From positions 1 through 64,000 of the forward strand of contig SAIW01000018.1 of assembly GCA_004028795.1 (NCBI GenBank): 64,000 nucleotides of DNA. Reading direction: 5' to 3'. Position numbers and translations under genes: made by a program. Positions 1,231 through 12,008 of this stretch are shown piece after piece (positions within the stretch are counted from its first letter, which is position 1; each line of letters begins with the position of its first letter). The stretch is from Chitinophagaceae bacterium (GTDB lineage: Bacteria > Bacteroidota > Bacteroidia > Chitinophagales > Chitinophagaceae). Below the pieces are notes generated by a model. It was not told the DNA's origin, ran no database searches, and worked only from the letters and a program-made list of their open reading frames with translations.

Positions 1231-2756
1231 TGATTTAAAAATGAATAGTTTCTTTTCTTTTTTGGAGAATATACCTTGTTTAAAAAATTTTTGATGAAAC
1301 TGTTGAAACTTGGACTTTCTTTAAAATAATCTTCTTTGGTAATTTCACCTCGTGAAAATGCATATACAAAATCTTCTCTTGTCGCAACAATTATTTGGTC
1401 TTTATTATCGTTCGTAGTTCCAGATTTTAAAAATAAACCTTCAAAAGAAGTATTTAATTTCTCAATTGATATATTATGCAAAATTTCTTTACATTCTTCT
1501 TTTATATCGCTTTCTGAGGAATCCTCAATAAAGAAATTATGATATGCAAGAGCTAATTCAAATAAAGAAATCCCCTTTCTCGTAGCCCCTAAAATACTAG
1601 ATGGAAATAAATCATCATTATTGATATTTAGAGTTTTTGCTAAGAATGATAAAGTTTTTTCGATACCAATAATATACGATGCATTTACAAAAGCATTATT
1701 TGTAGAATTACGAAGAGCGTTTTTTAAACATGTATTTTTAAAATTATCGTTTATTTCTCTGACTTCCCAGTTTGTTAAACTAATATTTGGAATAGGTGAT
1801 TCACTATTAAATCCATTAAGTCTTAGAAAAACATAGAGAAAAGGTTTTAATGTTGAGCCGACATTGGATTTGTATTCAAATGGATGGCTTGTCCCATAAG
1901 TGCTATACGTTCCAACTATTTTCCCTTTTTTTAAACAAAGAATTGATACTGGGAATTTTGAGTTATTGACAAATTCGACACAAATGTCTTGAATCGATTT
2001 TTGAATCGTTGTACTAATTGTAAAAGTTTCTTTGTTTATATTATTCGCAATATACTGGATTGTTGATTCTTTGAAAGTTGGTATAAATCTGTCTATCGCC
2101 CTTACTTCTTTATTTATTGATTGAAATTTTTTTGCATCCTTAATTACTTTACTCGTATAAAGTTTATTGATAATTAGTAATAATCGATTCTTAAAAAGAG
2201 TATTATTTGTAAGATAGAGATTCGGACCTCTTAAAAGAGTCAAAAGAGCAATTTGCTCTGATAGAGATAAATATTTTGGTTCTTTATAAAAATACGTAAT
2301 ACTTGCAGCCCTTAACCCATAATTTTTTCTACCCCAAAAAACCTCATTAAAATACAAATCTAGTATTTGTCCTTTTGAAAGACTTCTTTCTAATTTAATA
2401 GATAGTTTTAATTCATTAATTTTTCGTGATAAACTTCTTCGATTATCTCTTAAAATATTTTTAGATAATTGTTGGCTTATGGTGCTTCCACCCTGTACTA
2501 TTCTAAAAGCTTTTATATTTTGATAAATAGCTCTACAAATGGCTTTAAAATCAATAGCCTTATGGTATAAAAACCGCTTATCTTCAATTTCAATCAGGGC
2601 GTTCTTTAAAAATAAAGGAATTTCTGAACAGAAAGACTTTCTTTCACCGTTGTTGTTTACAAAGCCAATGGGTTTTCTTTTATTATTTGCTATACCATAG
2701 ATTGTATATCCATCATAGGAATTCATAAATATAAATATAGATAATTTAATGGTCAT
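1227..2756 (-). CDS. Compact class A penicillin-binding protein (glycosyltransferase plus transpeptidase-like)
   Basis: The N-terminal half is a family 51 peptidoglycan glycosyltransferase: EDKRFLYHKAID with catalytic Glu58, QGGSTISQQLSKN at 88-100, and ILDLYFNEVFWG at 131-142, where an Asp replaces the usual second Glu. The C-terminal half keeps all three transpeptidase signatures in order: STLK at 301-304 (SxxK), STN at 351-353 (SxN) and KSGT at 444-447. At 509 residues it is much shorter than typical class A PBPs (roughly 700-850). The N-terminus shows only a short hydrophobic run (residues 4-11) and no proper membrane anchor, although lipid II is polymerised outside the membrane. The chosen start overlaps the end of preA by 11 bases; Met11 is an alternative. 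Base composition is clearly more AT-rich than preA, suggesting acquisition. It could be active, or an accessory paralogue for a special polymer. Confidence 0.85.
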   Translation of the reverse strand: MTIKLSIFIFMNSYDGYTIYGIANNKRKPIGFVNNNGERKSFCSEIPLFLKNALIEIEDKRFLYHKAIDFKAICRAIYQNIKAFRIVQGGSTISQQLSKNILRDNRRSLSRKINELKLSIKLERSLSKGQILDLYFNEVFWGRKNYGLRAASITYFYKEPKYLSLSEQIALLTLLRGPNLYLTNNTLFKNRLLLIINKLYTSKVIKDAKKFQSINKEVRAIDRFIPTFKESTIQYIANNINKETFTISTTIQKSIQDICVEFVNNSKFPVSILCLKKGKIVGTYSTYGTSHPFEYKSNVGSTLKPFLYVFLRLNGFNSESPIPNISLTNWEVREINDNFKNTCLKNALRNSTNNAFVNASYIIGIEKTLSFLAKTLNINNDDLFPSSILGATRKGISLFELALAYHNFFIEDSSESDIKEECKEILHNISIEKLNTSFEGLFLKSGTTNDNKDQIIVATREDFVYAFSRGEITKEDYFKESPSFNSFIKNFLNKVYSPKKKRNYSFLNQ

Positions 2757-4014
2757 TCAACGGTAAACCTTGTTCCTGCCACATTTTCCAGTTAATGTAT
2801 TCCGGTGCAACACGCTGTTCTTCCATAGTAATGCAATTGTCAACAGGGCAAACCAACTTACATAAATTACAGCCTACACATTCTTCTTCTTTAATGGTGT
2901 AGGTATTGTATGGCTTGCCGTAAGTTAAATTAATGGATTGATGCGATGTGTCTTCACAAGTAATATAACATAACCCGCAATGAATACATTTATCCTGATT
3001 GATTTTGGCAATGTGGTGATAGTTGATATCTAAATCTTCCCAATGCGTTACAGTCGGTACACTCTTGCCGATAAAATCATTCAATGTTTTAAAACCTTTT
3101 TCATCCATCCAGTTATTTAAACCTTCGCACATATCTTCAATAATTCTAAAACCATGTTTCATAGCTGCTGTACAAACCTGCACATTGCCGGCACCGAGTA
3201 ACATAAACTCAACTGCATCTTTCCATGTACTGATACCGCCAATACCACTAATAGGTACTTTACCTGTTAGCTCATCCTGTGCAATAGTAGTTAGCATTTT
3301 TAATGCAATAGGTTTTACAGCGGGACCACAATAACCGCCAAACACACTCTTACCGGCTACATAAGGATTGGGAACAAACGTATCTAAATCAACACCAGTA
3401 ATACTTTGAATGGTGTTGATTAAACTTAACCCATGTGTACCTGCTTTAACAACAGAACGACCTGTAGGTACCACAGAATGCACGTTGGGCGTGAGTTTGG
3501 TAATAACAGGAATGGTTGCTTTTTCCATTACCCATTCAACGACCATGCAGGCAATTTCAGGATCCTGACCAACAGCTGCACCCATGCCACGCTCCGTCAT
3601 ACCATGCGGGCAACCGAAGTTTAATTCAAAACCCATAGCACCGGCATCTTCACATTTTTTAATTAACTCATGCCAACTCTCACGGTTGTTATCTGCCATT
3701 AAAGAAACAATGGTGGCTCTATCTGGAAATAGCTTAACCACTTCTGTAATTTCTTTTAAGTTTATATCTAATGGTCTGTCGCTGATGAGTTCAATATTGT
3801 TGAAACCCATAACACGCTGGCCACCATAGTCAACTGCTGAATAACGCGATGAAACATTTTTAACCTGACTGCCTAATGTTTTCCATACAACGCCGCCCCA
3901 ACCTGCTTCGTAAGCACGAATAACATTTATTTTTTTATCAGTGGGAGGGGCACTTGCCAACCAGAATGGATTGGGAGATTTTATGCCGAGAAAGTTTGAA
4001 CTGATGTTTGCCAT
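2746..4014 (-). CDS. preA: NAD-dependent dihydropyrimidine dehydrogenase subunit PreA
   Basis: PreA is the catalytic FMN subunit that reduces uracil or thymine to the 5,6-dihydro form, the first step of reductive pyrimidine degradation, acting with PreT in the cytoplasm. The dihydroorotate-dehydrogenase-like barrel contains LNFGCPHGMTERGMG with the active-site loop Cys at about residue 135. Two 4Fe-4S motifs follow near the C-terminus, CIHCGLCYITC (about 341-351) and CVGCNLCKLVC (about 378-388). I start at the ATG at 4014 (MANISSNFLG); the GTG further upstream lies inside a dispersed repeat and is unlikely. In most relatives preT and preA are adjacent; here a GxxExxY gene lies between them. 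Its end overlaps the PBP gene by 11 bases. Confidence 0.95.
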   Translation of the reverse strand: MANISSNFLGIKSPNPFWLASAPPTDKKINVIRAYEAGWGGVVWKTLGSQVKNVSSRYSAVDYGGQRVMGFNNIELISDRPLDINLKEITEVVKLFPDRATIVSLMADNNRESWHELIKKCEDAGAMGFELNFGCPHGMTERGMGAAVGQDPEIACMVVEWVMEKATIPVITKLTPNVHSVVPTGRSVVKAGTHGLSLINTIQSITGVDLDTFVPNPYVAGKSVFGGYCGPAVKPIALKMLTTIAQDELTGKVPISGIGGISTWKDAVEFMLLGAGNVQVCTAAMKHGFRIIEDMCEGLNNWMDEKGFKTLNDFIGKSVPTVTHWEDLDINYHHIAKINQDKCIHCGLCYITCEDTSHQSINLTYGKPYNTYTIKEEECVGCNLCKLVCPVDNCITMEEQRVAPEYINWKMWQEQGLPLNDH

Positions 4015-4023
4015 ACAATTAAT

Positions 4024-4055
4024 GTTTGCCACGAATGCATGAATAGCACAAATGG
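4024..4055 (-). repeat. 5' leader repeat, GTGC-CATT type, upstream of preA
   Basis: Read on the gene strand this is a string of near-repeats of the unit CATT-CGTGC ending in ATTCGTGGCAAA, about 10 bases before the preA ATG. Related copies lie at 4443-4472 (GxxExxY), 5878-5909 (preT) and 8958-8990 (dihydropyrimidinase), each at nearly the same distance from an ATG. Part of it reads as an in-frame GTG that could be mistaken for a start. Confidence 0.75.
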
Positions 4056-4058
4056 TTG

Positions 4059-4433
4059 TTAATAGATAATTCTTTTATGCTCTAACTTGCCTCTTGAGAA
4101 ATTGACTAACAAGGCAAGCCTGTTATTTGATACTTTTAAATAGTTAATGGCTTGTGATTCATGTTCATCAACTAAACTTTTTACACATTTTATTTCTAAA
4201 ATAATTTTATCAAACACAACAAAGTCAGCATAAAATTGATGCTCTAAAATTTTTCCTTTATAATTTACTGAATACTCCTTTTCTCTTTGATATTTTACCT
4301 TATTCAGATTGAATTCATATTCCAAAGCATCTTTATATACAATCTCCGCAAAGCCATGACCAAGTTGGTTATGCACTTCCATACATAAGCCAATAATTTG
4401 ATAAGATTCTTCTTTATAAATAAGTTCACTCAT
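4059..4433 (-). CDS. GxxExxY protein, PD-(D/E)XK nuclease-like
   Basis: This 124-residue protein matches the GxxExxY family: the motif GFAEIVY follows a conserved N-terminal helix (MEVHNQLGHG). The fold is that of PD-(D/E)XK nuclease-like proteins, with YADFVVFDKIILEIK supplying the Asp and ExK residues and HESQAINYL supplying a downstream Gln. The biochemical role of the family is unknown to me. I start at the ATG at 4433 (MSELIYKEE); an earlier possible start would add 12 residues encoded entirely by a dispersed repeat. The gene sits between preT and preA, which act as a complex, and is bordered on both sides by copies of that repeat, so it may have inserted there as a small unit. Confidence 0.9.
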   Translation of the reverse strand: MSELIYKEESYQIIGLCMEVHNQLGHGFAEIVYKDALEYEFNLNKVKYQREKEYSVNYKGKILEHQFYADFVVFDKIILEIKCVKSLVDEHESQAINYLKVSNNRLALLVNFSRGKLEHKRIIY

Positions 4434-4442
4434 AATGTTTTC

Positions 4443-4516
4443 TTTTGCCACAAATGCACTAATTGCCACTAATAAAAATTAAAAAATTATTTGTGTTTAT
4501 TCGTGCATCTGTGGCA
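4443..4516. repeat. Inverted pair of leader repeats between preT and GxxExxY gene
   Basis: The sequence at 4446-4458 (TGCCACAAATGCA) pairs with 4504-4516 (TGCATCTGTGGCA) with one mismatch, giving a stem around a roughly 45-base AT-rich loop. The right arm lies in the preT reading frame and encodes its last residues (MPQMHE, stop), so the repeat supplies the preT C-terminus. The left arm is the leader copy in front of the GxxExxY ATG. It could form an RNA hairpin between the two genes. Confidence 0.7.
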
Positions 4517-5867
4517 TTATATAATTCAAAATAGCTTTTGCTCCATCTTTACCAGCTTGCACCGCATCAACCACTTCTTTACCGCCGTTAACAGCATCTC
4601 CGCCTGCAAATACACCTTTAATATTGGTTGATTGATTGGCATCAATTATTAATTTACCATGATTATTATTCAATGCACAATCTTTAATTAATGCTTCATA
4701 AGGAATTTGTCCTGCAGCTTTAATAACCATATCAACGTTTAAAGTGAAAGTTTCACCTGTATCAACAGGGCTTCTTCTTCCGCTGGCATCAGGCTCACCT
4801 AATTGCATTTTACTGCAAACCAATTGCTCAACTTTACCATGACCTTTAATTTCTTTAGGGGCTGCCAACCAAATAATGTTACAACCATCCAGTTTAGCAA
4901 TATCTAATTCAACATCGGTACAAGGCTTTTCATTTTCGGTTCTTCTGTACACCATAGTTACTTCATTGGCACCCAAACGTTTGGCTTGTGTAGCAGCGTC
5001 AATGGCTGTCATACCCATACCGATTACTGCAACTTTATCTCCAACATTTACTTTTTCATATTTTGTGTTTCGTATCTCATATATAAATTTGATGGCATCT
5101 TCAACACCTTCCAAATCTTCTCCGGGTATTGCTAATTGTCTTGCCAAACCCACACCGATAGCGAGATACACGGAATCATAATTTTTTTGTAGTTTAGCAA
5201 GTGTTATGCCTTGCCTACCGGCAGGCAGGTCTTTTCCCAATTCCTGATTATACTTTATTTCAATACCACCAATACCTACAATATAATTTACTTCATCTTC
5301 ACAGAATTGCGGTGTTACTTTATAAGCAGCGATGCCGTAAGTCATTAGTCCACCACCTTTACTTTCCTTTTCATAAATGGTTACATCAACGCCTTCTCTT
5401 GCTAAAACATGGGCACAGCTTAATCCTGCCGGCCCTGCACCAACTATAGCTACTTTTTTACCGGTAGATTTTTTGCGTTCGAATAATTGCCAGTTATTGG
5501 CTAATGCTTTCTCAGTTGAATAACGTTGCAGTTTTGCAATGGGTATAGCAGGTTCATCCATTAAATTATATACACAACTGCCTTCACATAATTTTTCTAC
5601 AGGACAAACTTTGCTGCAACCTGCACCCATAATGTTTGATTGAAAAATAGTGTGTGCAGAACCTTTAATATTTTCTGTAGTTATTTGTTTAATAAACTTA
5701 GGGATGTTGATGCTTGTTGGACAAGATTTTGTACAAGGGGCATCATAACAAAACAAACAACGGTTAGCTTCTACCAATGCAGCATTATGTGTTTCAAAAG
5801 GTGGGTGTATGTCGCTGAAGTTTTGTTCGTATTGTTCTGCTGTTAGCCTGTTATTTTGAATTGCCAT
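4497..5867 (-). CDS. preT: NAD-dependent dihydropyrimidine dehydrogenase subunit PreT
   Basis: PreT is the FAD/NAD(P) electron-input subunit of dihydropyrimidine dehydrogenase and is related to the glutamate synthase small subunit. It passes electrons through iron-sulfur clusters to PreA. The N-terminal cysteine region is visible (CLFCYDAPCTKSCP, then GCSKVCPVEKLCEGSC), followed by the FAD dinucleotide fold VAIVGAGPAGLSCA and an NAD(P) fold VAVIGMGMTAIDAA. I start at the ATG at 5867 (MAIQNNRLT); the upstream GTG is repeat-derived. Two oddities: residues 213-219 (LPAGRQG) are an in-frame insertion from a palindromic repeat, and the last residues come from another repeat. The gene probably heads a preT/GxxExxY/preA unit with a repeat-rich leader. 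Confidence 0.95.
   Translation of the reverse strand: MAIQNNRLTAEQYEQNFSDIHPPFETHNAALVEANRCLFCYDAPCTKSCPTSINIPKFIKQITTENIKGSAHTIFQSNIMGAGCSKVCPVEKLCEGSCVYNLMDEPAIPIAKLQRYSTEKALANNWQLFERKKSTGKKVAIVGAGPAGLSCAHVLAREGVDVTIYEKESKGGGLMTYGIAAYKVTPQFCEDEVNYIVGIGGIEIKYNQELGKDLPAGRQGITLAKLQKNYDSVYLAIGVGLARQLAIPGEDLEGVEDAIKFIYEIRNTKYEKVNVGDKVAVIGMGMTAIDAATQAKRLGANEVTMVYRRTENEKPCTDVELDIAKLDGCNIIWLAAPKEIKGHGKVEQLVCSKMQLGEPDASGRRSPVDTGETFTLNVDMVIKAAGQIPYEALIKDCALNNNHGKLIIDANQSTNIKGVFAGGDAVNGGKEVVDAVQAGKDGAKAILNYIMPQMHE
5206..5233. repeat. In-frame palindromic repeat encoding LPAGRQG inside preT
   Basis: The plus-strand string TTGCCTACCGGCAGGCAGG is an imperfect GC-rich palindrome unlike the surrounding AT-rich gene. 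On the preT strand it reads as LPAGRQG between ELGKD and ITLAKL, where the family is normally continuous. From memory, short insertions of this kind recur in unrelated proteins of Bacteroidota and some other bacteria, which points to a dispersed element and not selection in PreT. Confidence 0.75.
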
Positions 5868-5877
5868 ACTTTTTGTT

Positions 5878-5967
5878 TTTGCCACGAATGCACAAATGGC
5901 ACTAATGGTTTGTTCAATATTTATTCTTTTGTTGAAGTGTGCGACGCCACTGAAGCTTAATTGAAAT
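5878..5967. repeat. Composite repeat in preT leader (CATT-CGTGC unit plus GTGTGCGACGC element)
   Basis: Two repeat types are joined here. Bases 5878-5909 are the CATT-CGTGC leader repeat just before the preT ATG. Bases 5935-5967 are a 33-base element with core GTGTGCGACGCCACTGAAGC. The 33-base element has a perfect inverted copy at 6941-6973, the pair flanking the beta-ureidopropionase gene. The whole composite is repeated with changes at 8958-9047 before dihydropyrimidinase. Confidence 0.85.
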
Positions 5968-6003
5968 GCTGTAGCCCGTTACACAAAAAGAAATCTACAT
6001 AAT

Positions 6004-6035
6004 CTTCTCCATTTCCCCTTTGGGGGATAGAGGCT
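6004..6035. repeat. AGCCTC / CCAAAGG palindromic dispersed repeat, intergenic
   Basis: On the minus strand this reads AGCCTCTATCCCCCAAAGGG and continues with GAAATGG. It begins at the TAG stop of the beta-ureidopropionase gene. Related copies occur at 10486-10516, 10571-10602 and 63930-63960. The CCCC-CAAA-GGGG core can fold on itself, so it may also act as a weak terminator here. Confidence 0.65.
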
Positions 6036-6900
6036 ACAACTCCGTTATTTTTCCGTAAGTCTCAGGTCTTCTATCTCTGAAGAATTGCCACTTGCTTCTT
6101 ATCTGTTCAATCAGGTCTAAATCAAATGCTGCAACCAGCAATTCGTCTTTGTCTTCACTAGCTTCTGCAATAATTTGTCCGAGTGGATTTACAAAATAAG
6201 ATGTACCGTAAAACTTACCTAAGTTCCAAGGTTGCTCTGTTCCTACACGGTTGATGCAGCCCATAAAATAGCCATTAGCCACTGCATGTGCCGGCTGTTC
6301 TAACTTCCATAAATATTGAGATTGACCAACTGTTGTTGCAGAAGGATTGTAAACAATTTCAGCACCATTCAATCCCAAACATCTTGCACCATCAGGAAAA
6401 TGTCTGTCGTAGCAGATGTAAACGCCCACCTTCGCATACTTTGTCTGAAACACGGGATAGCCAAGGTTTCCGGGCTTAAAGAAAAATTTCTCCCAAAAAC
6501 CACCTGTATGCGGAATATGATTTTTTCTGTACTTACCTAAGTAAGAACCATCAGCATCAATTACTGCTGCTGTATTATACAAAACACCTGCTTGCTCTTT
6601 TTCATACACCGGCACAATAATGACCATGTTATATTTTTTTGCATACGCCTGCATACGTTCAATGGTAGGGCCGGGAACAGTTTCAGCACTGGTATACCAG
6701 GCAGCATCCTGGCCCGGACAGAAATAAGGCGTATTAAAAATTTCCTGAAAGCAAAGTATTTGCACACCTAGCTTGCCGGCTTCTTCAATTAAAGGAATAT
6801 GCTTTTGCACCATAGCTTCCTTTATTTCTTCAATAGTGCCTTCACCTTCTGTTTTCGGAAGGCTCATTTGAATAAGACCGGATCTAATGATACGTGACAT
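6034..6900 (-). CDS. Beta-ureidopropionase (N-carbamoyl-beta-alanine amidohydrolase), nitrilase superfamily
   Basis: The enzyme would hydrolyse N-carbamoyl-beta-alanine to beta-alanine, CO2 and ammonia, step three of reductive pyrimidine degradation. The nitrilase triad is visible: Glu in CFQEIFNTPYF, Lys in KYRKNHIPH and Cys in VYICYDRHFPDGAR. The long NTPYF and GGFWEKFFF segments fit the beta-ureidopropionase/carbamoylputrescine amidase subgroup; context with PreTA and dihydropyrimidinase favours the former. I start at the ATG at 6900 (MSRIIRSGLIQ, 288 residues), since the codon two positions upstream is TTG. The gene is bracketed by a perfect 33-base inverted repeat (5935-5967 and 6941-6973). 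Confidence 0.92.
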   Translation of the reverse strand: MSRIIRSGLIQMSLPKTEGEGTIEEIKEAMVQKHIPLIEEAGKLGVQILCFQEIFNTPYFCPGQDAAWYTSAETVPGPTIERMQAYAKKYNMVIIVPVYEKEQAGVLYNTAAVIDADGSYLGKYRKNHIPHTGGFWEKFFFKPGNLGYPVFQTKYAKVGVYICYDRHFPDGARCLGLNGAEIVYNPSATTVGQSQYLWKLEQPAHAVANGYFMGCINRVGTEQPWNLGKFYGTSYFVNPLGQIIAEASEDKDELLVAAFDLDLIEQIRSKWQFFRDRRPETYGKITEL

Positions 6901-6940
6901 AAGCAATTTGAAGTTTAAGGTTTATGTACTTAGCTTTTGT

Positions 6941-6973
6941 ATTTCAATTAAGCTTCAGTGGCGTCGCACACTT
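6941..6973. repeat. Inverted copy of GTGTGCGACGC element, leader of beta-ureidopropionase gene
   Basis: This is an exact reverse complement of 5935-5967 over 33 bases. It lies 41-73 bases upstream of the beta-ureidopropionase ATG and just past the end of the TMEM175 gene. The core GTGCG-A-CGCcAC is close to a dyad, so it could be a protein binding site or one half of a REP-like pair. Confidence 0.85.
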
Positions 6974-6986
6974 ATACTTTTGTTCT

Positions 6987-7568
6987 TTATTCAGCAAATA
7001 TTTTCTCAATATTCTTATCGGGTATAAACCAAATTACTGAAACAACAAAGAATAAAGAGCCTGCTATAAATGAATTAAAAAATAATGCGATAGGTATAGA
7101 TGTTGCATACAACACAACTGACATGATTGATTTCCAATTTGACTGTTTGGTATTTATTCTTTTTGATGTTTCTGCATCATAAGTTTTACAAATAGCACTT
7201 TGTAAAATATTATACGATAGCCCGCAAACTAAAGCTAGCACTGCGTAAGAGGCAACAGTAACTTTATCAAAATGATTTTCTCCCATCCAGGCTGTTATAA
7301 ACGGAATAAGAGATAACCAAAACAATAAGTTCATATTAGACCAAATAATACCCGATGTTACTTTTTTTGCTGTATGTAATAAATGATGATGGTTGCCCCA
7401 ATAGATGGCAACAAACAAAAAGCTTAAAATATAACTGAGCAATTTTGGTATTAATGGTTTAATGACTTCCCAGCTAACACCTTCGGGTGCTTTCATTTCC
7501 AATACCATAATAGTTATGATAATTGCAATAACGCCATCACTAAATGCTTCAAGCCTTGTTTTATTCAT
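6987..7568 (-). CDS. TMEM175 family membrane protein (DUF1211), probable potassium channel
   Basis: The 193-residue protein opens with the TMEM175 signature, RLEAFSDGVIAIIITIMVLE, in its first helix, where the FSDG and following residues line the pore in bacterial relatives. About six hydrophobic helices follow. Bacterial members form potassium-permeable channels. The ATG lies one base after the dihydropyrimidinase stop, so the two are almost certainly cotranscribed. A link between potassium conductance and pyrimidine catabolism is not known to me; the pairing may be accidental or tied to membrane potential during permease-driven uptake. Confidence 0.9.
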   Translation of the reverse strand: MNKTRLEAFSDGVIAIIITIMVLEMKAPEGVSWEVIKPLIPKLLSYILSFLFVAIYWGNHHHLLHTAKKVTSGIIWSNMNLLFWLSLIPFITAWMGENHFDKVTVASYAVLALVCGLSYNILQSAICKTYDAETSKRINTKQSNWKSIMSVVLYATSIPIALFFNSFIAGSLFFVVSVIWFIPDKNIEKIFAE

Positions 7569-7569
7569 A

Positions 7570-8949
7570 CTAAATAATTTGAGCTACTTTATTTCTTTTA
7601 ATAAACCTGCCATAACCTTTTTCTACTTTACATTCATCGTTATTAATAACTACTTTACCTCTTAATAAAACCGTTTTTACTTTACCTGTTACTTCCCAAC
7701 CTTCATAGCCACTGTAATCCACATTCATGTGATGTGTTGATGCAGATAAAGTGTGTTTTTCATTGGCATCGAAGAGAATTATATCTGCATCACTGTCAAC
7801 AGCAATGGTTCCTTTCTTCGGGAACATGCCAAAGATTTTGGCTGCATTGGTACTGGCGACTTCTACAAACTTGTTTAGGGTGATTTTGCCTTTGTTTACG
7901 CCTTCACTGAACAGTAATTCTATTCTGTTTTCAATAGCCGGATGGCCATTAGGAATTTTAGAGAAATCATCCTTGCCCATCAATTTCTGCTGCCACATAA
8001 AAGGACAGTGGTCTGTTGCCACCACTTGCACCAACCCTTGGTTGATGCCGGCCCATAATGTTGCTTGGTCTTTCTTTTCACGCAATGGTGGGCTCATTAC
8101 CCATTTAGCTCCATCTTCTCTTTCATATAAAGAAGCATCTAAAATTAAATATTGAATGCAGGTTTCTACAAATACTTTCTGATTTCTGTAAGTACCATTA
8201 CGAACAGCATTTAATGCTCCTTCGCAAGTGAGGTGAACAATATAGCCCGGGCATCCGGTATAACCAGCCATCTCCACAAAACGTTCACTCGCTTCTGCTT
8301 CCGTTACTTCCGGTTGAGACAAATAATGATATAAGGGAGACAATTTGCCTTCGCTTTTATGCTTGGCTATGAGGTAATCAATCATGTCTCCATTGGTAGC
8401 ATGAACATTGATGAGGCCACCATGTTTTTTTACTTCTTCCATTAAACCTATCATTTGCCTGTCATCAATCATTAAAGCTCCTTTATAAGCCATAAATGTT
8501 TTGAAAGAAGTAATGCCTTCCTGTTCTATGAAATGCCGAATTTCTTTTTTTGTTTCATCATTGAAATCAGTCACCGCCATGTGAAAGCTATAATCACCTA
8601 CACAGTTATTAGTGCTTCTTTCTTTCCATTCCTGTAAAGCAGCTTGTAAACTATTGCCTTGCTTTTGTAAGACGAAATCTATGACTGTTGTTGTGCCACC
8701 AAACAAAGCTGCACGTGTACCGGTTTCATAATTATCACTTGAATAAGTACCCATGAACGGCATATCTAAATGCACATGCGGGTCTACACCTCCTGGCATA
8801 ACTAATTTGCCTGTTGCATCAATCACTTCATCAGCAGTAACGTTTAAGTTTTTACCTATGGCTGAGATGGTTTCGCCTTCAATAAAAATATCAGCAACAT
8901 AATTATCTGTTGCGGTGATGATGTTTCCTTTTTTAATTAAAATACTCAT
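7570..8949 (-). CDS. hydA: Dihydropyrimidinase
   Basis: This cyclic amidohydrolase opens dihydrouracil or dihydrothymine to the N-carbamoyl-beta-amino acid, step two of the pathway. Metal-site motifs are present: DPHVHLD near residue 57, the Lys that becomes carboxylated in SFKTFMAYKGA, then INVHATNGD, YIVHLTCEGA and ATDHCPF. At 459 residues it has normal family length, and the ATG at 8949 matches the usual MSILIKKG start. A hydantoinase or allantoinase role is possible for the family, but the neighbours PreTA and beta-ureidopropionase make dihydropyrimidinase the best call. A composite repeat occupies its leader from 8958. Confidence 0.95.
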   Translation of the reverse strand: MSILIKKGNIITATDNYVADIFIEGETISAIGKNLNVTADEVIDATGKLVMPGGVDPHVHLDMPFMGTYSSDNYETGTRAALFGGTTTVIDFVLQKQGNSLQAALQEWKERSTNNCVGDYSFHMAVTDFNDETKKEIRHFIEQEGITSFKTFMAYKGALMIDDRQMIGLMEEVKKHGGLINVHATNGDMIDYLIAKHKSEGKLSPLYHYLSQPEVTEAEASERFVEMAGYTGCPGYIVHLTCEGALNAVRNGTYRNQKVFVETCIQYLILDASLYEREDGAKWVMSPPLREKKDQATLWAGINQGLVQVVATDHCPFMWQQKLMGKDDFSKIPNGHPAIENRIELLFSEGVNKGKITLNKFVEVASTNAAKIFGMFPKKGTIAVDSDADIILFDANEKHTLSASTHHMNVDYSGYEGWEVTGKVKTVLLRGKVVINNDECKVEKGYGRFIKRNKVAQII

Positions 8950-8957
8950 GTTTTATT

Positions 8958-9047
8958 TTTTGCCACGAATGCACAAATGGCACGAATGGTTTGTTCAGTT
9001 ATATTCTATTGTACAAGTGTGCGACGCAACTGAAGTTTAATTGAAAT
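8958..9047. repeat. Composite repeat in dihydropyrimidinase leader
   Basis: This is the second copy of the composite at 5878-5967, in the same order and orientation: the CATT-CGTGC leader repeat, a variable AT-rich middle, then GTGTGCGACGCAACTGAAG at about 9017-9035. It starts about 9 bases upstream of the dihydropyrimidinase ATG. The right part pairs imperfectly with the inverted copy at 11967-11997, and together they flank the permease and aminotransferase genes. Confidence 0.85.
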
Positions 9048-9066
9048 ACTTAAGCCGGTAACATAA

Positions 9067-10545
9067 TTATTTCTTCTTACTTAATATCCAATAAACAATA
9101 GCACTCACTGCAAAACCCACAAACCAAGCATAGTGATATAAATCTACTATCCATGCTGGTATGGAGGCTGCATCTAACACTTTAATAGCAACCAAGAAAC
9201 CCGGTACATTGGGTAGCACGCCCAACAACAATGCTATGATGGCTTTAGGATTGTATCCATTGCCAAAACCATAAATTCCCTTGTGGCTGTACAAATCATT
9301 TACACTCAATTGCTGTTTGCGTATGAAGTAATAATCAGCAATCATAATGCCGCCAATAGGACCTAACAAACCTGAGTAAGCAATCAACCATGTGAAAATA
9401 TAACCACTTGGGTCTGCCATCAACTTCCAGGGAAAAATCAATACACCAATAACACCGGTTATGTATCCACCGATTTTGAAATTAATTTTCTTAGGATTTA
9501 AGTTGGCAAAATCATTGGCAGGGCTAACAATATTGGCTGCAATATTTGTGGCCAATGTAGAGATGATGATACCAATCATAGCAAAGCTCACCACAAATTT
9601 GTTTTGAAATTTTCCTGCTAATTGAACTGGATCCCACTCAGGCTGACCGTAAATAATAGCTGATGCAGATGTTACCACTACACCAACAAATGCAAATAAT
9701 GTCATGCTTGGTGGTAAACCTATTGCTTGTCCTTTTATTTGTGCTTTCTGGCTTTTAGCATAACGGGTAAAGTCGGGGATGTTTAAAGATAAGGTTGCCC
9801 AAAAACCTACCACAGCAGTTAATGCAGGAAAAAAGAAATTAAAAAAAGATGCAGTATCAGAAAACTTGGATGGTTCACGTAAAATGGGACCTAAACCTTT
9901 AGCTGCAATTACTGCCCAACAAAACAAAGCCAATGCAGCTAATGGCAAAAAGAAAGCTTTGAATATGAGCAGCTTTTTTATGCTATCAACACCTTTATAA
10001 ATGATGAACATATTCAATGCCCAGAACAATAAAAAGCAAACAGCAGGCAATGCTTGTGGCAATAAACCGGTAGTATTAATAGGCTCTAAACCTGGGCTCC
10101 ATGCTCTGATTAAGTTATACAAGGATGCTCCGCCAATCCATGTTTGAATGCCAAACCACCCACAGGCAACTACTGCTCTTAACATAGCAGGTATGTTAGC
10201 TCCTTTTGTACCAAAACTGGCTCTAGCAAATACCGGAAACGGAATGCCAAACTTAGCACCGGCATGCCCATTCAATAACATAGGCACTAACACAATAGCA
10301 TTACCGATGAAAATAGTAAGTACTGCTTGCCACCAACTCATACCACTATTAATCATGGAGCTTGCCATTGTATACGTTGGGATACACAAGCTCATGCTAA
10401 TCCATAAGGCTGCATAATTCCATGTACCCCAAGTTCTTTTGTTTTGAGGAACCGGAGCCAGGTCTTCTGAGTACAGAGAGGAAGCCTCCCTGCCCTCCAA
10501 AGGAGGATTTTCAGACTCTAATTGTTTAGAAAATTCATTATTCAT
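9067..10545 (-). CDS. NCS1 family nucleobase/hydantoin permease
   Basis: This 492-residue transporter has about twelve hydrophobic helices and the NCS1 signature region RTWGTWNYAALWISMSLCIPTYTMAS followed by GMSWWQA and GIPFPVFARASFG. NCS1 proteins import uracil, thymine, cytosine, allantoin or hydantoins by sodium or proton coupling. Placement between dihydropyrimidinase and the aminotransferase suggests uracil or thymine uptake. The hydrophilic N-terminus is unusual: residues 11-21 (SENPPLEGREA) are encoded by a dispersed palindromic repeat at 10486-10516, so the natural start may have been further in. It lies 22 bases downstream of the aminotransferase stop. Confidence 0.93.
   Translation of the reverse strand: MNNEFSKQLESENPPLEGREASSLYSEDLAPVPQNKRTWGTWNYAALWISMSLCIPTYTMASSMINSGMSWWQAVLTIFIGNAIVLVPMLLNGHAGAKFGIPFPVFARASFGTKGANIPAMLRAVVACGWFGIQTWIGGASLYNLIRAWSPGLEPINTTGLLPQALPAVCFLLFWALNMFIIYKGVDSIKKLLIFKAFFLPLAALALFCWAVIAAKGLGPILREPSKFSDTASFFNFFFPALTAVVGFWATLSLNIPDFTRYAKSQKAQIKGQAIGLPPSMTLFAFVGVVVTSASAIIYGQPEWDPVQLAGKFQNKFVVSFAMIGIIISTLATNIAANIVSPANDFANLNPKKINFKIGGYITGVIGVLIFPWKLMADPSGYIFTWLIAYSGLLGPIGGIMIADYYFIRKQQLSVNDLYSHKGIYGFGNGYNPKAIIALLLGVLPNVPGFLVAIKVLDAASIPAWIVDLYHYAWFVGFAVSAIVYWILSKKK
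10486..10516. repeat. CCTCCAAAGGAGG palindromic repeat in permease N-terminus
   Basis: The plus strand reads CCTCCCTGCCCTCCAAAGGA followed by GGATTTT, with CCTCCAAAGGAGG as a near-perfect palindrome. It encodes SENPPLEGREA in the permease. It is in opposite orientation to the copy at 10571-10602, making an inverted pair around the aminotransferase/permease junction. Confidence 0.75.
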
Positions 10546-11966: not shown

Positions 11967-11997
11967 ATTAATTAAGCTTTAGTTGCGTCGCACACTT
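11967..11997. repeat. GTGTGCGACGC element, inverted orientation, aminotransferase leader
   Basis: The reverse complement reads AAGTGTGCGACGCAACTAAA followed by GCTTAATT, matching the right part of 9015-9047 with a few changes. It lies 32-62 bases upstream of the aminotransferase ATG. With the copies at 5935, 6941 and 9015 it means four transcription-unit starts in the pyrimidine locus carry this element. Confidence 0.8.
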
Positions 11998-12008
11998 GTA
12001 CTTTCTAT

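Follow-up and report, generated by a model that had tools for sequence, protein, structure and literature searches.

GxxExxY genes and their periodic arrays: a putative minimal mobile cassette in a pyrimidine-breakdown operon of a Chitinophagaceae bacterium

Short intergenic repeats and the strings of the operon

A RAYT gene is flanked by its own repeats. In this system (REP/RAYT, also TnpA-REP or 'REPtron'), short intergenic repeats go with a dedicated small nuclease gene and are dispersed as non-autonomous copies, and co-evolution of the transposase with its repeat is reported in PMC8266576. The TAACTGA direct repeats of Beggiatoaceae, Cyanobacteria and Bacteroidetes are intergenic and often stand just before start codons, and the passages on them in PMC4679880 are the closest description found of such strings as leaders. 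The subject here is a 64,000-nt stretch of a Chitinophagaceae bacterium (GenBank assembly GCA_004028795.1, contig SAIW01000018.1, positions 1 to 64,000; hereafter the window), in which periodic strings precede four minus-strand genes, namely preA, a GxxExxY-family gene, preT and the dihydropyrimidinase gene. These strings are probably the ends and the dispersed solo copies of a minimal cassette, consisting of an array, a GxxExxY gene and an inverted array, with a REP/RAYT-like mode of spread.

A first-pass annotation of the window had described the strings as a shared element close to the start codons of the four genes. They lie where it placed them (Table 1), the exact 12-mer ATTCGTGGCAAA being present in three and the GxxExxY copy differing by one base. 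Its observation of a near-constant spacing also holds, with 10, 10, 10 and 9 nt from GGCAAA to the ATG, and the false GTG starts that it ascribed to the strings are real, the mechanically called open reading frames (ORFs) of preA, GxxExxY and preT opening at a GTG within the array. The 12-mer alone, at up to 2 mismatches, shows no enrichment in the window (13 matches against 9.4 expected). That the strings are not due to chance follows instead from the longer match, the four copies forming one 47-nt family in which the other three are 62-94% identical to the reference copy, and from the two-unit arrays, which number 20 rows in the whole genome (3.43 Mb, 26 contigs), the reversed pattern used as control giving 4. 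Seven of the 20 rows are within this operon, overlapping units being listed as separate rows, and several others are inside coding sequence. Real-looking copies outside the window are found before a start codon (L010, L014) and near a gene end (L025), and another (L012) lies just 3' of the stop codon of a gene identified as guaA by eye.

The GxxExxY leader (element 2) folds with the opposite arm into a long hairpin (-29.3 kcal/mol), and this arm encodes the last residues of PreT as well as its stop codon. The preA string (element 1) is inverted with respect to positions 4480-4517 across the GxxExxY gene, with an alignment score of 19 that was reached by 0 of 2000 shuffles. Given the hairpin and the inverted match, elements 1 and 2 are taken as the two ends of one GxxExxY unit of ~490 bp. 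Over 117 nt, which take in a second dispersed repeat, elements 3 and 4 show 85% identity. The four elements therefore represent fewer independent events, two being the ends of one cassette and two being mutual copies. The best reading of the locus is a single cassette (about 4025-4515) placed between preT and preA, with solo arrays before preT and the dihydropyrimidinase gene.

Array grammar and the GxxExxY protein lineages

The array consists of a 7-bp unit, CACNAAT (ATTNGTG when read from the gene side), that recurs every 8-11 bp, which is about one helical turn. GxxExxY genes elsewhere were represented by 114 loci among the best matches listed (a set of 30, a set of 20 that includes 5 from the window's own genome, a set of 60, and 4 preT loci). 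In these, 115 ORFs matched and 110 were kept after open-ended, N-containing, short-flank and identical ones had been removed. Inverted flanks were scored as the best inverted match between the 200-nt flanks at p <= 0.01 against 100 dinucleotide shuffles, a number that sets the floor of p at 0.0099 both here and for the 80 loci described below. Such flanks were found at 74 of the 110 GxxExxY genes, compared with 0 of 31 cold-shock and 0 of 27 ParE genes. The 74 genes, like the ends of the window's cassette, thus possess terminal inverted repeats as do insertion sequences and miniature inverted-repeat transposable elements (MITEs), and in one case (L395) the ends are perfect over 19 nt.

The inverted arms have a median length of 28 nt and largely follow the pattern CRCNRAK. 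Units of this pattern number 6.37 per 400 nt of GxxExxY flank, against 1.08 in shuffled sequence and 0.74-1.11 in the other families. Recurrence of 6-mers in the GxxExxY flanks is chiefly at lags 8, 9 and 10 (69, 73 and 60 per 100 flanks, respectively), with 21 at lag 12 and at most 11 at other lags. The units vary between genomes, arrays being present on both sides of many genes with different units, and one clade of 15 GxxExxY has no CRCNRAK label, several of its members having inverted arms of another sequence. Between the two arrays of 184 inverted pairs the GxxExxY motif was found in 154. Of the remaining 30 pairs, two enclose GxxExxY genes in which the motif is altered, and the others span only an empty spacer or an adjacent ORF; the PIN-domain case described below came from a separate comparison.

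The unit type tracks the lineage of the protein rather than the genome. On a tree of 108 GxxExxY proteins (2 fragments left out of the 110), 68 of which have a unit label, position 7 of the unit requires 3 changes, where shuffling gives a mean of 14.6 and never fewer than 9; the four unit types require 17 (shuffled mean 31.3, minimum 24), the tree being made by a quick method from few columns. Position 7 agrees in 30 of 30 close pairs from different genomes. Pairs from the same genome agree in 10 of 17 cases, which is no better than distant pairs (1406 of 2231). Among close pairs taken at a somewhat wider limit (distance < 1.2) and without a shared neighbour homologue, position 7 agrees in 39 of 39 and the type in 31 of 39, so shared loci do not explain the agreement. 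Each GxxExxY lineage tends to retain its own unit type within CRCNRAK.

The nearest named relatives, examined as the best 80 of 496 and hence near relatives of the window's GxxExxY, are mostly Bacteroidota, together with records labelled Ignavibacteria, Chlorobiota and Calditrichota and a few metagenome-assembled genomes with other labels. A chained array is present on at least one side in all 80 (upstream in 66, downstream in 76) and inverted flanks at p <= 0.01 in 48, with CACGAAT as the dominant unit in 42 and CACTAAT in 13. Arrays occupy the adjacent 200 nt in 64 of 77 and 74 of 78 cases; at 1000-1200 nt they occur in 0 of 74 and 1 of 76. The neighbourhoods of the 80 loci fall into 50 groups when joined by any shared neighbour homologue and into 59 when neighbours must be shared on both sides. 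The distance from the upstream array to the start codon ranges over 2-142 nt, and that from the stop codon to the downstream array over 1-111 nt, so that there is no fixed register beside these genes either. Plasmid-borne relatives, from five phyla, present a weaker picture, with a chained array in 2 of 8 and inverted flanks at p <= 0.02 in 3 of 8. On a Sphingomonas plasmid the GxxExxY gene lies between fabD and fabG, with a periodic string directly before its start.

The window's protein belongs to the GxxExxY family, with profile scores of 137.1 bits against a cut-off of 35 and 125.7 against 22. Residues E30, D70, E80, K82, Q94 and Y98 are invariant in 11 diverse GxxExxY sequences, and D-ExK-QxxxY is the PD-(D/E)XK motif of RecB/Cas4-like nucleases. 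The catalytic residues D...ExK are represented by D70, E80 and K82, of which E80 is conserved at 90% or above in 37 near relatives. The AlphaFold model (pLDDT 95.1) has SSO0001 (4ic1), which we take to be a Cas4 protein, as its nearest solved structure (Foldseek E 1.9e-5; Z 10.0, rmsd 3.3, 98 residues). Restriction enzymes, Cas4, AddAB and other nucleases of the same fold follow at Z 6-7.5, where Z < 8 may mean a common arrangement alone. The sequence search against solved structures gave three matches (E 0.15-0.74), none of them credible. The protein is predicted, from its conserved residues and modelled fold, to be a RecB/Cas4-like nuclease. PDDEXK_3 is the sole Pfam match of the cassette gene at E <= 0.001, with no HUH tyrosine transposase. 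PADLOC, which was consulted for known defence families, has no family for GxxExxY at E <= 1. No function for GxxExxY was found in the open-access literature, where GxxExxY, PF13366 or PDDEXK_3 are mentioned in 3 papers, in two of them incidentally.

Solo arrays, gene junctions and neighbouring features

The pattern TTTGCCACNAAT-N1-5-CACNAAT is present in 16 of the 198 genomes of the order, in 1 to 61 copies, while its reversed control was found once. GxxExxY is a common family, with matches in 138 of the 198. The window's clade, defined at bits >= 134 (the next score is 119), is in 19 genomes and the CACNAAT array in 16, and both are in 8 (p = 1.2e-5). Leaving out G106, where the arrays are the cassette's own ends, the counts are 7 of 15 against 12 of 183 (p = 1e-4), and with genera as the unit, counted by hand, 5 of 10 versus 7 of 96 (p = 0.0015); these Fisher tests ignore phylogeny.

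Solo arrays were studied as 86 copies from 60 loci of six array-bearing genomes selected for high array number. They are intergenic in 80 cases, although 72% of these loci is coding. Among the solo arrays with a same-strand start codon within 400 nt, 2 of 41 stand at 15 nt or less from it, compared with 37 of 474 random intergenic positions, which indicates that the constant spacing in the window is a local property and not a property of the element. The absence of a spacing bias, the outcome that the first-pass annotation had itself named as contradicting its proposal, is therefore what the relatives display. Two further forms were noted: in G145 the array element is an imperfect palindrome of ~75 nt, and in G182 (L199-L206) a second periodic string, of ATCCGCGTAAATCCGC type, comes after the ATTTGTG arrays, as though different families of array were stacked in a single place.

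The preT-preA junction exists in occupied and gene-free versions. A match to preT was found in 27 of 147 genomes; 22 of the 24 close loci were read, and preA was present in 21. In 8 of the 21 readable family genomes preT and preA are separated by 18-70 nt with no gene between them, and by eye some of these gaps contain strings of the 7-nt type. A GxxExxY gene occupies the junction in 4 genomes, with two classes of unit among them, and an S23-type gene does so in 3; the remaining 6 show longer spacers, other arrays or other ORFs. In the window's congener G234 an S23-type gene occupies this junction with 7-nt-type arrays on both sides. The S23-type genes (TIGR02436, presumably S23 / four-helix bundle proteins) have inverted flanks at p <= 0.01 in 17 of 30 cases, and in their flanks 6-mers recur at lags 7 and 14 (338 and 298 per 100 flanks), a strict 7-nt period (L255-L284). 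S23-type genes and 7-nt arrays are a parallel system with another grammar.

A second slot was found in the genus of G024, in which the slot of four species lies between one pair of neighbouring genes, judged by eye to encode a dipeptidase and a glycosyltransferase. The slot holds a GxxExxY cassette in two species and a GxxExxY gene with a broken reading frame in one. In the fourth (L516), a PIN-domain gene and a small upstream partner, which resemble a toxin-antitoxin pair, lie between like array ends. Across these loci (L515-L518), the GTG of the array is in frame in three of the four species where the ATG of the downstream gene is gone, and such a GTG may sometimes be a genuine start codon.

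Features of the window are collected in Table 1. The name preT is given by context, the best NCBIfam models scoring under their cut-offs. The preT product has an in-frame insert, DLPAGRQG (5215-5240), that is encoded by a palindromic CTACCGGCAGGCAG string and is absent from two readable relatives (L209, L215). The second dispersed repeat is unrelated to the arrays and has 172 matches genome-wide at <= 1 mismatch; copies of it stand a short way upstream of four arrays, namely elements 3 and 4, L010 and L014. It contains CGTC; CGTC-tagged REPs are described in passages of PMC3733652.

Table 1 Positions of the array elements, genes and second repeat in the window.
Feature	Position	Strand	Remarks
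Element 1 (preA 'leader'), ATTTGTG-ATTCATG-ATTCGTGGCAAA	4025..4055	-	3' end of GxxExxY cassette; 10 nt before preA ATG
Element 2 (GxxExxY 'leader'), ATTAGTG-ATTAGTG-ATTTGTGGC	4443..4473	-	inner arm of 5' array hairpin
Opposite hairpin arm, ATTTGTG-ATTCGTG-ATCTGTGGC	4489..4515	+	overlaps preT end and stop codon
Element 3 (preT 'leader'), ATTAGTG-ATTTGTG-ATTCGTGGCAAA	5878..5908	-	solo array; 10 nt before ATG
Element 4 (dihydropyrimidinase 'leader'), ATTCGTG-ATTTGTG-ATTCGTGGCAAA	8959..8988	-	solo array; 9 nt before ATG; closely similar to element 3
Exact 12-mer ATTCGTGGCAAA	4025-4036, 5878-5889, 8959-8970	-	
One-mismatch 12-mer ATTTGTGGCAAA	4444-4455		GxxExxY copy
GxxExxY gene, 124 aa	4059..4433	-	TIGR04256 and PF13366 (PDDEXK_3), E 1.5e-36 and 3.2e-40; predicted RecB/Cas4-like nuclease
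preA, dihydropyrimidine dehydrogenase subunit	2746..4014	-	right-hand cassette neighbour; NF006183, 648 bits (cut-off 335)
preT-like flavin/Fe-S subunit	4497..5867	-	left-hand cassette neighbour; Fer4_20 and Pyr_redox_2
Dihydropyrimidinase	7570..8949	-	TIGR02033, 584.6 bits (cut-off 393.25)
Second, unrelated dispersed repeat, TGCGTCGCACNCTTG type	5922..5986 (-); 6921-6977 (inverted); 9002-9066; 11970-11998		

Alternative readings and relation to known systems

The cassette reading starts from what is directly observed, namely the bracketing of the gene, the covariation of unit and protein, the many neighbourhoods, and the one junction seen with and without its gene. In the proposed mechanism the small RecB/Cas4-like nuclease would bind the units on one face of the helix and would nick or cut at arrays or gene junctions, and host repair would then copy the cassette or an array to the new site in a REP/RAYT-like or homing-like manner. 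The near-constant spacing to the ATG would reflect the survivors of inserts into short intergenic gaps that left translation undisturbed, the common origin of elements 3 and 4 adding to the likeness, with no regulatory register. The first-pass annotation had offered a common insertion preference as one of two explanations, and this is borne out in a sharper form, the arrays being located at gene junctions as the ends or solo copies of GxxExxY cassettes.

Several points weigh against this reading. Mobility by means of the nuclease is our inference, and neither movement nor cutting nor binding was observed. Covariation would also be expected if the gene and its ends travel together without recognition. 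A significant inverted flank is missing at 36 of the 110 GxxExxY genes and a chained CRCNRAK array at 40 of 108, and a chained array is also present at one ParE locus of 27. Q94 of QxxxY falls below 90% in the 37-row alignment, despite its invariance in the 11 sequences. The association between any GxxExxY and any array is only weak (15 of 16 versus 123 of 182, p = 0.04), and 8 of the 16 array-bearing genomes are without the window's clade, among them G003, which has a broken copy. G116 (86% complete; L167-L186) has 61 arrays and zero GxxExxY matches. In only 3 of the 6 genomes that allow the comparison (G000, G050, G167) are solo arrays most like the resident gene's own flanks. In this comparison G106 contributed flanks but no solo arrays, and the motif used failed to detect two genes, that of G145 and the second member of the clade in the window's genome. 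No close pair of occupied and empty sites with exact borders was found, and a target-site duplication was not established. Carriage by phages was not found, and carriage by plasmids was found in 8 of 72,556 records.

An unlikely but serious alternative is that the arrays serve GxxExxY itself, as self-regulatory sites or as two-way terminators or insulators, and are moved passively by host recombination, the solo arrays being remnants of gene loss. The position of the arrays on both sides of the gene, the strong hairpins that they can form, the solo arrays in genomes without the clade and the broken GxxExxY gene of G003 between intact array ends would all suit this explanation. It sits less well with the dispersal of up to 61 copies per genome and at least 50 neighbourhood groups, which ask for a spreading mechanism, and with the cold-shock and ParE control genes, which lack such flanks. 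Far less probable is a generic dispersed intergenic repeat beside which GxxExxY lies by accident, the least likely of the explanations weighed here. The patchy distribution of the array (16 of 198 genomes), its mostly intergenic position (80 of 86) and the presence, next to elements 3 and 4, of a different repeat that has about 172 copies would fit, but the chained array is beside every one of the best 80 of 496 named relatives and is gone within about 1 kb, and the unit type is tied to the protein lineage.

The other explanation in the first-pass annotation, a post-transcriptional control element by which a shared leader regulates pyrimidine breakdown via RNA structure or a binding protein, is not supported and is considered very improbable. 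It would account for the 9-10 nt to the ATG in all four cases and for the membership of three of the genes in one pathway, and TAACTGA heptamers just before start codons are proposed as post-transcriptional sites in passages of PMC4679880. However, a constant distance to the ATG recurs neither in relatives nor at the 80 named loci (2-142 nt). At orthologous preT-preA junctions there is either no gene or a quite different array or another cassette, and two of the four strings are the ends of one cassette while the other two are mutual copies. The arrays may nevertheless have some effect on the transcripts of these genes. A known RNA family was also sought, and Rfam 15 gave 0 matches at gathering score in 3900-9200.

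On the cassette reading, GxxExxY and its arrays resemble REP/RAYT in having short intergenic repeats, a dedicated small nuclease gene and dispersed non-autonomous copies. As in REP/RAYT, the repeat and the enzyme covary. The likeness is one of working and not of membership, as the GxxExxY enzyme is a PD-(D/E)XK nuclease whereas that of REP/RAYT is an HUH tyrosine transposase, and the arrays are chained 7-bp units every 8-11 bp whereas a REP consists of one palindrome, 20-40 bp long, to which a short tag is attached. The TAACTGA repeats differ from the arrays in being contiguous 7-mers of another sequence, with no associated gene proposed in the passages of PMC4679880 concerned; their 7-nt period resembles that of the S23-type flanks. 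The TAACTGA unit itself occurs 3 times in the flanks of the 110 GxxExxY loci and 0 times in those of the 30 S23 loci. Insertion sequences and MITEs share with the cassette the inverted ends round a single gene and the gene-free copies, but the cassette is without a DDE or HUH transposase and its ends vary in length and unit number. Free-standing homing endonucleases are likewise small stand-alone nuclease genes between conserved genes (here preT-preA and fabD-fabG), and unlike them GxxExxY is bracketed by periodic arrays. The predicted fold and the D and ExK residues are those of Cas4/RecB-type PD-(D/E)XK nucleases, although GxxExxY is much smaller (124 aa), stand-alone and array-bracketed.

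No description of a GxxExxY-array system was found in the open-access literature. To our knowledge no known kind of element pairs a RecB/Cas4-like nuclease with cognate periodic arrays. An evenly balanced proposal is that GxxExxY and its cognate CRCNRAK arrays constitute a new minimal class of mobile element, in which a RecB/Cas4-like nuclease of ~125 residues would read the arrays by unit type and helical phasing and spread to gene junctions. The array-bounded slot could hold other small genes (the PIN-domain pair, G037), and the S23 genes with 7-nt-period arrays would be a parallel class. If the arrays are moved only passively, the claim of a wholly new kind would be too strong. A cognate DNA that covaries with the protein gives the GxxExxY family a direct test of binding and cutting. 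Periodic intergenic strings are readily mistaken for regulatory leaders, as here and, with another unit, perhaps in the passages of PMC4679880, and the arrays suggest where such strings may come from. If the cassette reading is true, a small repeat system is driven by its own nuclease, one whose fold also serves recombination and CRISPR adaptation.

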